Assembly (NCBI RefSeq): GCF_021134715.1
Contig: NC_060026.1
Location: 11,895,001 to 11,959,000, forward strand
Direction of reading: 5' to 3'
Source: Daphnia pulex
Taxonomy: Eukaryota; Arthropoda; Branchiopoda; Diplostraca; Daphniidae
Length of the DNA stretch: 64,000 bases
Shown here: positions 7,894 to 64,000 of the stretch, one piece after another
How positions within the stretch are numbered: position 1 is the stretch's first letter
How the letters are laid out: every line of letters starts with the position of its first letter
Translations under genes and position numbers: made by a program
The notes under the pieces: generated by a model
The model's input: only the letters and a program-made list of their open reading frames with translations
Told to the model about the DNA's origin: nothing
The model's database searches: none

Positions 7894-10578
7894 TTTCCAC
7901 CTCCTACATCACGAGTGGGTTTTTTCGGGGATCCGGGTTCTGTTGAATCCAGTACAAGGAGGTAGGACCTTAGAGTATACACGAAGTCCCAGCTGTGTGG
8001 CGTAATGGTACTACACAGTAGGGGGATTGGGTGGGAGAGAGAGAGAGACTGTTCGGGCGTAGGATAGAAGCAAATAGAAAAAAGAGAAAAAGAAAAAAAA
8101 AGAACTGGGAAACTGTCCCGCTTTGTAGAGGTTAACGCCGTGCCTTTCGGCTATTCGGCTGATAGTCGCACACGGTCGGTCCAGCAGCTTTATTAGTATT
8201 TCCACTTGTATTTGTAATACAACATGCGCGTTCCGCTTTTGGACCGCGCGCTTCTCTCCCCTGTAATTAACTACTACCCCCTTCTTTCTCTCTCTCGTCT
8301 TCCCTTTCGTCATTTTTAGTTTCGTTTCGCACCGTTATCCCAGGAGTGAACGCACCTTAAGTAGGCCTATATTTTCTTCTTTTCTCTTTTTTGTTTTGTG
8401 GACCACATCAGCAATGAGACTTTTGTTGGAGACCAAAGCAATGGACCGTTCACCTCTCTTGTATCGGTAAAACTGGTGTATTAGCCCGTCATTGTTTTCC
8501 CATTTGCTTCAATAGATAAAATGTAACTGGTATTGTGGTATGCTGGACTTATAGATATTTAAGCTAGAGTCATGCGCTGTAGGCTAAACTAGATTCCGAA
8601 ACGGTTTTTTTTGGCAATCACTTTCTTTGTTAGTCATTCCCCAGTTCAATTTTAGGATTTAACAAAAGGATTGTACCTGGCCTTTTGACCTCTATTTGAC
8701 TGTTTCAAAACGGTTGAAAATCTGGGACGCAATATGCAAGTTCACCTAGACAACAAAGACAGAGAGACCGTGATAAAGGGCTTCGGGGGCCGTTTTCGAA
8801 CTTTGGTACGACTTTTGTTGTGCATCGGGTTTTTTTATTTTTTCACAGTCGGCCTGTATGAGTGCGCTGTGACTGAGAATACATCTATGGATGTCATGGC
8901 TACACGCGCTCCCCAAAACGAATTCACCAAATAATAATTTAACCTTATTATCTGCTGAGGCGATTCAGCAATAATGGAAGAAATGGCAATTCTCCAATGG
9001 TATTTTTAGATGTACCCTACGCAGCACAGGTGTCGGTCATATTTCTTTTTAATCTGCCCAATCAGTTAGTTGAACGAGCTGAGCGCCCGTTAACTTGCAT
9101 TCCACCCATTTGTTAAGTCAATTCATCCATTCAGGCTTTTGTTACAGATATTTCACATTGTTATTCTTAATCATCTGCGGATGACTGGCCTCCTAGCGCG
9201 ATTAACTTTTTCTGCTTGTCTACACTCCCCAGCGATCGGCTTCCAATCTCCAATGATCTCCAATAAAATAGAAGCGGAGAACCGAGAAAAAGAACGACTA
9301 AAGCCGTTATCTTTTAAAAGTCCTATTCAAAATTCTAGGCAATAAAAATCGAATAACATGGTAATCTTTTGTGACCAGAGGGCGACCATATAGGCGTATA
9401 CTGTAGATCTTGGCAAAGGCTTTTAAAAGGCTTTGTTTAGTACACCATCCACTGATTATAGATATTAAAAGGGAGGCGACAAGAAGTGTAAACCCAAAAC
9501 TGGAAAAAGGCACCCATATACAGACCTTAGGTTTGTAGCGCATATAGCCTATATAAGAGAATTGAGTAAAAACATTAACCTTAATTCCGTTTCCAGCGGA
9601 GGCATTTAGCTTCAACATGTGTTATTTACAGTTCCTTAGAAAATAATGGAATCGTTCCTATTTCTATCAGGTACAGCTTTTGTGTGGCACACAATGCGGC
9701 ACTCTGCCACCTAACAGCTAAACACACCCTTCTTTTTTTTTTAAGAGGAAGACAAAAATGTTACTACTACCTTTGGAAAATTCTCGGATGGCCAACTTTC
9801 ATTTAGCACAAAAACGTCAAAACGGAAGCGTCTTTTCTTTTTGCCACGCAATTATGTTTCTCTTTCGGGAGGGAAAAAAAAGTTTTCTTCAAAAAATATC
9901 CTACCTGTGCTGATTGCTGACTATTATTGTCGGTTGGCAGAAGGAAATCAAAGCTTTTTTATGGCTTTGAGTTGACTGTCTTCAAAGATTTAGGTGAACG
10001 ACAAAAAAGAGCACACTAAAAATACATCTAGGCTAGCTTAGCGATGATTTCAGTCTGAAGTTTCAACGCTTTATACGCGCATGAATCCACCAAATCGTGA
10101 AGGTATAATTCTCTTGGTCGGCCTGAGTTTGTATTGGCTATTTCTGTAATTTTTTTTTTGGTAAGAAAAAGAAAGGAAGAAAAAAAAACCCACAAATGGG
10201 GTGTACTGTGGTGTGGAATTAGCCATATGTGATCACGGTCGTACCCTTCGGAATCGTAAAAGTCTGCAGGATGTAAAGAGTTAGAGTCAAATAAATTTCG
10301 CCGCATTTCTGATGGCAACAACCGGTGGACCTTGTCGTTTTCACATATGGCTTAACAGTCTATCGCTTTATAGTTTTATTCGCTTACAATCATCGCCAGA
10401 ATCCATGCCATGACGACAAGTCCAAAGATAAGATGACATCCTTTCTTTCTTGTTGGATTGTGAACCGAATTTTAGAAAACGGAAATGACGTCAGCCACGG
10501 ATTTCAGGTTTCAGCCGGTTTCAGCAGATGAGTAATATTATTTTCTTTGTAGTACAGTTCAAGAAACGTGTTATTCTT

Positions 10579-61555: not shown

Positions 61556-62209
61556 TTAGGACTGCAGTTCCTTGTCATACAGGAAGACACCTAGACCATC
61601 TCCAACACGGACCAAGTTGGTGTGGTGTTTGGCCAACTTGTTGATAGACTCCACTTGTTCATCCAAGAAATGCTCCTCCAAATAGTTGGTAAGATGGGGG
61701 TCTTCATGGCTACTAGCCACCTTGTGCAAATCTAGCAGAGACTAGAAAAGAAAAAAAAACATTCAGTCCCTTAATTCTGAAATAAAATCTATAGTGTGAA
61801 AAATGTAATACCTGGTTGACTTGTTTTTCCAGATTGAGAACAAATTCAATTGCGACTAGAGGAGTTGCCCATTCTTGTTGAGCTGGACGGTTAATAGCAG
61901 AAAATACAACTCGTCCTCCACGAAGATTCTGATATTTCATGAGTTTTTCAGCATGTTCGTGTTCTTCTTCAGAACTTTCTTTGAAAAATTTGGCAAATCC
62001 TTTGAGAGCTACGTCGTCACGATCGTAATAGGACGCCTATAGAGAAAGAAATGGTTGATTGAAAATGTAAAGACGCAAAAAAGAAGAACGCAGTTTTGAT
62101 AACTTACCAGAGCCATGTACTGGTAATGAGCATTGAGCTCAATGTTGATCTGCTTGTTGATGCAGGCTTCAGACTCCTCATGGTAGTTTTGACGAACTTT
62201 GTTGGCCAT
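61556..62209 (-). CDS. Ferritin heavy chain-like, cytosolic (gene 1, frameshifted in last exon)
   Basis: Ferritin stores iron in a 24-subunit shell and oxidises Fe(II) at the ferroxidase centre. Exons on the minus strand: 62209-62108, 62036-61812, 61742-61556. No signal peptide, so it is of the cytosolic type. Ferroxidase ligands are visible: Glu and Tyr in [10 protein letters not shown] and the Glu/His of EEEHEHA. The last exon is 187 bases, one more than the 186 in the neighbouring paralogue. A run of four T (61681-61684, minus strand TATTTTGG) has one T too many in the codons for NYLEEHF. As written, the frame shifts and stops soon after, losing the end of helix D and helix E. The rest of the exon is well conserved to KELQS. 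Confidence 0.85.
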
Positions 62210-62275
62210 TTTTTCTTGAGTTTGAAGAAATTGGGTCGCTTAATTGGAAAATATTGTAAAAGAGAGTTGGAAATC

Positions 62276-62307
62276 CTGCTTGTTCGTGCACTGACGAAGC
62301 TAAACAG
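62276..62307 (-). promoter_or_regulatory. Iron-responsive element in ferritin 1 leader
   Basis: On the minus strand the hairpin has a perfect 5-bp upper stem (TTCGT/ACGAA) closing the canonical six-base loop CAGTGC. Below it are an AGC/C internal loop, as in ferritin elements, and a 6-bp lower stem (CTGTTT/AAGCAG, one wobble). It lies about 65-100 bases before the ATG and a few bases after the predicted start. Iron regulatory protein would bind it at low iron and block translation. Confidence 0.88.
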
Positions 62308-62337
62308 ACGAATGACAGGAGATGCGTCAAAGCAGCC

Positions 62338-62344
62338 TTATATA
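62338..62344 (-). promoter_or_regulatory. TATA box of ferritin 1
   Basis: Minus strand TATATAA followed by GG. It predicts transcription from about 62313, so the iron-responsive element would be cap-proximal, as needed for translational control. Confidence 0.6.
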
Positions 62345-63268
62345 CTACATCCCTTCGATGTTGCCAAGCAATCGATAGCGCGGGCGTTGGGTTTCTTTTG
62401 AAAACGCCAACTCACGCTCACTTGCAACTACTGCGCTGAAATACGTCATTCGTATTGCACGTGATAGCTATGCTGTGTACACGTCGCAGAACGCGTATAG
62501 AACCGGCTTCAACTAGTTTTTAATTTCGTTTAACTTTTTTTCATTTATTTGCAGCGCATTTGAGTAGAGTTGTTAATTTTACTTGATTTTTATTTTTCAC
62601 AAACAGACTGTGTTATGTCTTCTAAAAATTCAGCCATCTATAATATGATGAAAAAAGTAAAGCGAAAAAATGATGCAAAAAACTGGCAAATTGCGCAGAA
62701 TGTGTACGTGACGTTTCAACACTTTTGCCCAGTTCAGTTTCGAGATAACAAGCTCGTATCCTTTACCACCGAGTTTGTCACCGTTCAAACAGTCTCACAT
62801 TTAACATTTTTCCCATGATATTGCGCCATAAAGCAATATGCTGCTTGAATACGTCAATCAACGGAAATCCAAGCAAACAGACGCATTTGGCATTTCGACC
62901 TGAAACAACAACAGGGCTGACGGTAAGTCGACGAAAGATAATCGTGTTTTGACGTTTAAATTTATTATTTTATTATGTACTTAATTCGTGGCGGTTATAT
63001 TGTCAGTCAAATTTTGAAAAAGTAAAAATTAACAAAATTCTGCATTTTGATAACTGATTTTATTTTAATGCCCCACTTTATTTAATGATTCTCAATTGTA
63101 TTTTGCGAGATTCTACTATACATTTAACACACACCGACGAGAATTTCGACTTTTTATCTGCAATAAGTTTTACATCGTTAATCCATCAACAGATTCAGTC
63201 GTATTATTGCCATCAGTCATAATAATAGGCTAGGCCTAGTTAACTGACTTTAATTTATTGATTTCAGT
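62345..63268. other. Region between the two ferritin genes
   Basis: Holds the distal ferritin 1 promoter and the 3' end of ferritin 2. The frame at 62570-62818 on the plus strand has a plausible acceptor and a start MSSKNSAIYNMMKKVK, but no recognisable domain, so it is not called as a gene. Confidence 0.35.
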
Positions 63269-63946
63269 TTAACAATGCAGTTCCTTGTCATAGAGGAACA
63301 CTCCGACGCCATCTCCCAAACGGACTAAGTTGGTGTGATGTTTGGCCAGCTCGTTAATAGACTCTACCTGATCCTTCAAAAATTCACCTTCAAGATAGTG
63401 GCAAAGGTGAGGATCGTTGCGCTTGGATCCCATAGCGTGCAAGTCCAATAGTGACTGCACATTTAAACACATTTATGACATTTAACCGTTACAAAGTTTA
63501 AACGTTACAAGTTGGGTTATAATTGACTAGACACTCAATAGTGACTTACTTGATTGACTTTCTTTTCTAAATTGAGGGCGAATTCGATGGCTGCCAGAGG
63601 AGATGGCCATTCTTGTTCAGCGGGAGGGCCAACTTCGTTCAAAACCACACGCCCTCCTCGAAGATTCTGATACTGGATCAGCTTCTGAGCGTGCTCATTT
63701 TCCTCTTCGGCAATTTTCTTGAAGAATTTTGAAAAGCCGCTCAAAGCTACATCATCACGACCGTAAAATGCGCCCTGTATTAATTTGAATTAGTAAGATT
63801 TTTAAGACTTGAAGTTGAATGACTTAATTAGGATTTCAACTCACCAAGGCCAAATATTGGTAGTAAGCGTTCAGCTCGACGTTGATCTGCCTATTCACGA
63901 GAGCTTCAGACTCTTCGTGATAGTTTTGGCGACTTTTACTGGACAT
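63269..63946 (-). CDS. Ferritin heavy chain-like, cytosolic (gene 2)
   Basis: Three exons on the minus strand keep frame: 63946-63845, 63774-63550, 63454-63269, giving about 170 residues, the usual length. Ferroxidase ligands are in place: Glu24 and Tyr31 in NVELNAYYQY, Glu59 and His62 in EEENEHA, the Glu in helix C (AAIEFALNLEK) and Gln in KDQVESINELAKHH. No signal peptide is present, so it is cytosolic. Intron positions match gene 1, so the two are tandem duplicates. Only about 54 bases of leader lie within the window; no iron-responsive element is seen in them, but one may lie beyond the edge or in an upstream exon. Confidence 0.93.
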
Positions 63947-64000
63947 TTTCTTGTAGAAATTTGTTTCAAATGTGGATGTCAAGCTTTATTATTTAAGTTC

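Follow-up and report, generated by a model that had tools for sequence, protein, structure and literature searches.

Known ferritin elements and the hairpin of g1

Control of translation by an iron regulatory protein (IRP) through an iron-responsive element (IRE) is known from arthropods, as with the IRE of Drosophila SdhB. The ferritin IRE of vertebrate FTH1 and FTL is a hairpin in the ferritin 5' leader with a five-base-pair upper stem, a CAGUGC-type loop, and an internal-loop C8 (PMC8466369), and the hairpin of the Daphnia ferritin gene g1 is alike in all of these. The 5' side of the internal loop differs, being UGC/C in the vertebrate ferritin IRE (PMC4184891) and AGC/C in g1. Closer in lineage are the ferritin IREs of crayfish and Pacific white shrimp, which are also crustacean ferritin elements, and PMC4184891 reports that the crayfish IRE is bound by a crayfish IRP1-like protein. 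At position 8, these decapod elements are reported to have a bulged G instead of a C (PMC4184891; PMC8466369, section 3.6), whereas the six Daphnia elements described here have C8. In insects, Fer1HCH has an IRE under this type of control (PMC1940262); unlike that element and the one of SdhB, the Daphnia elements sit on cytosolic Fer3-type ferritins. In another arthropod lineage, the iron response of the tick intracellular ferritin HlFER1 was ascribed by its authors to IRE/IRP translational control (PMC3940913).

IREs in crustacean ferritins are therefore already known, and what is added here is the C8 and a paralogue, g5, with a dead loop. Although the accessible parts of PMC1940262 and PMC2234263 do not describe an IRE in a Daphnia ferritin leader, one may well be known already. 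With the present elements, the classical IRP/IRE switch is placed on the cytosolic ferritins of a branchiopod-like animal, in a form with the canonical C8, the described decapod elements being of the G8 kind. The loop-dead g5, which comes from one assembly, is more interesting than the g1 IRE.

The window, that is, the whole stretch of DNA analyzed, is 64,000 nt long (C10:11895001-11959000), and the genome searched comprised 133.19 Mb in 13 contigs. Feature coordinates are collected in Table 1. The preliminary description of this DNA had called the g1 hairpin a canonical ferritin IRE and predicted IRP control from it; sequence, position, the covariation seen between paralogues, and the presence of an IRP1 gene all support that reading. 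We consider it very probable that the hairpin, close to the predicted cap in the leader of a cytosolic ferritin mRNA, is a ferritin-type IRE through which IRP1 controls translation.

Table 1. Coordinates of ferritin features in the window (numbered from its first base) and elsewhere in the genome (contig or locus given)
Feature	Position	Strand	Details
Ferritin g1	61556..62209	(-)	exons 62108-62209, 61812-62036, 61556-61741; 170 aa
IRE of g1	62276..62307	(-)	RNA 62307-62276: CUGUUU AGC UUCGU CAGUGC ACGAA C AAGCAG
g1 IRE, lower stem CUGUUU/AAGCAG	62302-62307/62276-62281	(-)	6 bp, one G-U
g1 IRE, internal loop AGC/C	AGC 62299-62301 opposite C 62282	(-)	includes C8
g1 IRE, upper stem UUCGU/ACGAA	62294-62298/62283-62287	(-)	5 Watson-Crick bp
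g1 IRE, loop CAGUGC	62288-62293	(-)	
TATA box TATATAAG	62337..62344	(-)	first T 37 nt upstream of IRE base 1
Initiator-like TCATTC	62310..62315	(-)	predicted cap A62313
Predicted 5' leader of g1	62210..62313	(-)	104 nt, no intron required
Tandem paralogue g2	63269..63946	(-)	ATG 63946; three exons, 170 aa, 70% identical to g1
IRE of g2	C10:11959000-11959031	(-)	window base 64000 and 31 bases beyond the edge
IRE-like hairpin of g5	C3:1211823-1211853 (L036:6823-6853)	(+)	loop AAGAA instead of CAGUGC
g8 leader	C12, L033 about 8100-8250	(-)	decayed IRE remnant at the aligned place, CAGUG loop absent

Volz (2021) lists five features of an IRE, namely the C14-G18 pair with A15-G16-U17, a pyrimidine at position 19, C8, and a five-base-pair upper helix (PMC8466369). 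Checked against this list, the g1 hairpin has all five: its CAGUGC loop provides the cross-loop C14-G18 pair and A15-G16-U17, position 19 is C (U or C being called for), C8 lies in the AGC/C internal loop, and five of five upper-helix pairs are formed. The anatomy first proposed for it, a 5-bp upper stem, CAGUGC, AGC/C, and a 6-bp lower stem, is confirmed.

How often such a hairpin would arise by chance was assessed in 80 Mb of simulated first-order Markov sequence with the dinucleotide make-up of the window. With a strict setting (C8, CAGUGH, five of five upper and six of six lower pairs), the real window gave one match and the simulated sequence none. A looser setting (at least four upper pairs and six lower) gave three matches per 80 Mb, or about ten per genome of this size, so hairpins that lack one upper pair, like those of four IRE-bearing leaders out of six, are expected about ten times genome-wide, which counts against the IRE reading. 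Folding, which had been suggested as a check, gave pairing probabilities for the g1 hairpin, in the context of the leader and 30 nt of coding sequence, of 0.89 for the upper and 0.76 for the lower stem. Its folding energy of -7.5 kcal/mol is unremarkable (z -0.97, with 33 of 200 shuffles equally stable). The energy z-score, not being significant, was dropped as proof of the g1 IRE.

An IRE predictor had also been proposed; the Rfam IRE models missed the g1 element. No Rfam family reached its gathering score in the window, neither IRE_I nor IRE_II matched at E <= 10 in 62100-62500, and the sole Rfam match at that level in this interval was to an unrelated family (E 9.6). Genome-wide, RF00037 gave two weak matches, none of them at ferritin loci (82 of 50,640 first-look candidates scored). 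In being unmatched by the Rfam IRE families, the g1 element is again unlike the vertebrate one. A covariance model, R2, was built from the leaders of g2, g3, g4, g6, and g7 with g1 left out, and it finds the g1 element at 37.3 bits (E 3.1e-6, E-values being rough), the runner-up within the window scoring 13.8 bits (E 1.1). The hairpin could in principle be functionless and due to chance, as the ordinary energy and the missing Rfam match would suggest; we regard this as extremely improbable, given that 80 Mb of simulated sequence held no hit of equal quality, that the same type of element occurs with covariation in five other ferritin leaders, four of them similarly spaced from a TATA-like box, and that a model trained without g1 recovers it.

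A pattern shaped on the six IREs, which measures specificity only since it was derived from those elements, had eight matches in the whole genome, the six IREs and two copies of another 20-mer, and its reversed control had two. The two copies of the other 20-mer, at L043 and L044, were rejected as IREs; their surroundings are near-identical, and one frame resembles, by eye, the gag knuckle of a retroelement. A looser pattern, with 20,847 matches forward and 20,894 in reverse, was too unspecific to be used.

Predicted start site and leader of g1

As the preliminary description had it, the hairpin lies on the sense strand between the TATA box TATATAAG (62344-62337) and the ATG at 62209. The initiator-like motif TCATTC would place the cap at A62313, at a distance of 31 nt from where the TATA box begins (its first T). 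For mouse promoters, the shortest effective distance between TATA box and start is given as about 29 bp, and positions slightly upstream of -31 are described as still viable (PMC1779604). We infer, by analogy, that the mouse spacing is valid in Daphnia too. In vertebrate ferritin mRNAs, a few tens of nucleotides separate the IRE from the cap; the g1 hairpin starts about 6 nt after A62313, in line with the earlier placement within about 10 bases of the predicted cap. A hairpin some 10 nt or less from the predicted cap suits a block of cap-bound initiation.

The position of the g1 cap, the binding of IRP, and the dependence of translation on iron are put forward by analogy with the established IRP/IRE system. 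When cytosolic iron is low, IRP1 lacking its Fe-S cluster would bind the CAGUGC loop together with C8, and bound beside the cap it would block entry of the small ribosomal subunit (43S). When iron is high, IRP1 would gain a 4Fe-4S cluster and release the hairpin, and ferritin would be made.

Further upstream, a 20-bp block, GAGCGTGAGTTGGCGTTTTC, at 62400-62419 (minus strand) is common to the promoters of g1 and g5, and TGAGTTGGC there is reminiscent of an antioxidant-response core. Two ACGTG cores also lie 5' of the g1 TATA box, at 62458-62462 and 62480-62484 on the minus strand, and may be hypoxia-response sites.

Element variants among the ferritin paralogues

The g1 protein matches PF00210 with 126.4 bits, and its best solved-structure match scores 237.7 bits. 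No signal peptide was seen by eye, and from its ferroxidase residues we take it, also by eye, to be an H-type ferritin. A genome search with PF00210 gave 14 matches, which correspond to eight three-exon cytosolic ferritins (g1-g8), one Fer1HCH-like gene, and one Dps-like frame. The ferritin introns are short, from 65 to 99 nt in the seven genes assembled, and the genes form a two-intron family, expanded in this genome, that may be compared with the one treated in PMC1940262. A scan of viral contigs did not find ferritin relatives. In an unrooted protein tree, the eight form two four-gene groups, g1/g5/g6/g7 and g2/g3/g4/g8, inside both of which the order is mostly unsettled. Since both groups hold members with an IRE and one loss each, the presence of the IRE is probably ancestral. 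Two of the genes, g3 (C3:1191198, L035) and g4 (C3:1209725, L036), are 98% identical, lie about 18.5 kb apart, and both carry an IRE; they are probably a recent duplication.

A CAGUG hairpin with C8 and a three-base/C internal loop is found in six of the eight cytosolic ferritin leaders, those of g1 and g2 (C10), g3 and g4 (C3), g6 (C7), and g7 (C12). These six make up alignment A2, which thus compares paralogues of one genome, and leaves out g5 and g8, both of which are without CAGUG. C8 and CAGUG are each present in six of six, and the invariant columns of A2 are G8 and C9 before the upper stem, CAGUG, C26 opposite, and two single T columns. Of its 66 cells, 92.4% are paired, with changes on both sides in seven of the 11 base pairs. 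Among 500 shuffles of A2, none matched the pairing value or the two-sided count, and six reached the number of further pair types; sliding the partners lowered pairing to 30-50%. A TATA-like box stands 32-38 nt 5' of IRE base 1 in six of seven leaders (g1-g5 and g7, with g6 lacking one).

The covariation also bears on the reading of the near-palindromic TTCGTCAGTGCACGAA as a transcription-factor site in the DNA at the start site, not an RNA element. Its place directly at the predicted core promoter would fit such a site, but the stem letters vary among paralogues while pairing is kept, and neither a conserved loop nor an asymmetric internal loop is expected of a DNA palindrome, making this reading very unlikely.

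Under the reading as a ferritin-type IRE, the six elements differ in quality. Position 19 is C in g1 and g6, U in g7, and A in g2, g3, and g4. The upper helix has all five pairs in g1 and g7 and four of five in g2, g3, g4, and g6, where pair 9-24 is open (A.A in the first three, C.U in g6); in g6 the outermost lower pair is unpaired as well. Pairing probabilities (upper/lower stem), which are nearest-neighbor estimates for RNA without protein and with the cap set 6 nt upstream of each hairpin, are 0.97/0.91 for g7 and 0.61/0.81 for g4, and weak for g3 (0.06/0.60) and g6 (0.48/0.36).

The tandem paralogue g2 had been described as without an element in its visible leader, and a possible difference in control between the two tandem copies had been suggested from this. 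Reading beyond position 64000, a check that was asked for at the time, shows that the g2 leader does carry an IRE; only its last base, at 64000, falls inside the window, so the element was taken as absent, and the suggested difference was an artefact of the edge. In the g2 hairpin, the A.A mismatch sits at the foot of the upper stem; in context, this stem pairs with a probability of 0.27 and the lower one with 0.13. Given these features, the g2 element may be a weaker IRE than that of g1.

Two paralogues have lost the loop or almost the entire element. The g5 protein is 88% identical to that of g1. Both genes have the promoter block and the TATA box, and both read CATTCGTCTGTTTAGCTTCGT, after which g5 has AAGAA and g1 CAGUGC. 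In g5, all five upper-stem pairs are retained along with the AGC/C bulge and six pairs of the lower stem, and two one-sided changes keep the pairing (probability 0.68 upper, 0.66 lower, the loop being absent), and a six-leader model trained without g5 still matches it at 27.1 bits (E 0.0012). Without CAGUG, recognition by IRP is predicted to be lost, and g5 would thus have escaped IRP control, its loop change being seen in one assembly. In g8, the element has decayed further (Table 1).

These losses, in two of eight paralogues, show that loss is tolerated in the lineage, and raise the question of whether the g1 hairpin is itself an inherited relic, an IRE-like fold on a ferritin that is mainly under transcriptional control (by metal, hypoxia, or oxidative stress), with IRP control of g1 weak or absent. 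Also in its favor are the GAGCGTGAGTTGGCGTTTTC block common to the g1 and g5 promoters and D. pulex arrays in which some ferritins respond at the transcript level to arsenic or cadmium (PMC1940262 and PMC2234263). However, C8, CAGUG, and the opposite C are invariant across six divergent leaders while the stems covary, which is unexpected of a relic, and the genome encodes an IRP1 with most of its contact residues; we therefore find a relic improbable.

Taking the g1 element as a working IRE, the cytosolic ferritin duplicates might be split into translation-controlled and iron-uncoupled members, an idea that we hold tentatively and rate as somewhat less than probable. If it is true, g5 would be made regardless of iron status and g8 would be without the element, control of g2, g3, g4, and g6 (pair 9-24 open) would be less strict than that of g1 and g7, and in one genome similar proteins would come with IREs of naturally graded strength. 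With full, mismatched, loop-dead, and lost variants on similar proteins, a division of labor between duplicates through escape from iron control becomes testable.

IRP1 and other iron genes

The 21 matches to PF00330 in the genome fall into three loci, on C3, C4, and C6. The C3 gene, as an 885-aa spliced model that omits a small exon seen in the DNA and has about 12 wrong residues there instead, matches human IRP1 at 1346.8 bits, IRP2 at 1130.1 bits, and mitochondrial aconitases at up to 176.1 bits. It keeps the cluster cysteines C437, C503, and C506. Of 11 IRP contact residues taken from PMC8466369 and PMC4184891, ten are kept (R269, S371, T438, N439, S681, P682, R713, R780, D781, W782), as counted by eye on an alignment with the human protein whose chain numbers are one below those of the literature. 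The remaining one, K379, is replaced by R, as it is in the earthworm IRP, where the authors called the same change probably not crucial (PMC4184891). The C4 locus (L071, C4:8006001-8013500) is IRP1-like, with an exon series similar to that of the C3 gene and an in-frame stop, and is probably a decayed duplicate. By eye, the C6 locus looks like a mitochondrial aconitase.

On the gene strand, no CAGUG hairpin with at least four upper pairs was found at the three aconitase-type loci, nor in 15 kb around the Fer1HCH-like gene, including about 9 kb upstream, and the 3.3-kb SDHB locus has no CAGTG on its gene strand. IREs at SDHB, the aconitase-type loci, and upstream of Fer1HCH were accordingly rejected, with three-pair sites at most. 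The IREs found are all on cytosolic ferritins, in a search that is blind to G8-type or atypical elements, distant leader exons, and genes outside the fetched loci.

On C7, a secreted ferritin light-chain-like gene has exons at about 6300-8210 of L031 (minus strand). With its exons crudely joined, its best solved-structure match is the ferritin light chain of 1z6o (E 1.7e-4), with none in Pfam. It stands head-to-head with the Fer1HCH-like gene (ATG L031:9167), about 1 kb away and divergent, as in insects. The strand of L031 that holds the light-chain-like gene has two CAGTG sites, with two and three pairs. As of 2007, no crustacean Fer2LCH had been found, according to PMC1940262. The Dps-like frame that matches PF00210 is in L074 (C1:1140001-1150000), whose 10 kb hold 11 open frames of at least 120 aa, all on one strand, among them, by eye, ribonucleotide reductase, dCMP deaminase, and glutaredoxin. 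This stretch resembles a large phage inside an animal contig and is likely contamination or a chimera.
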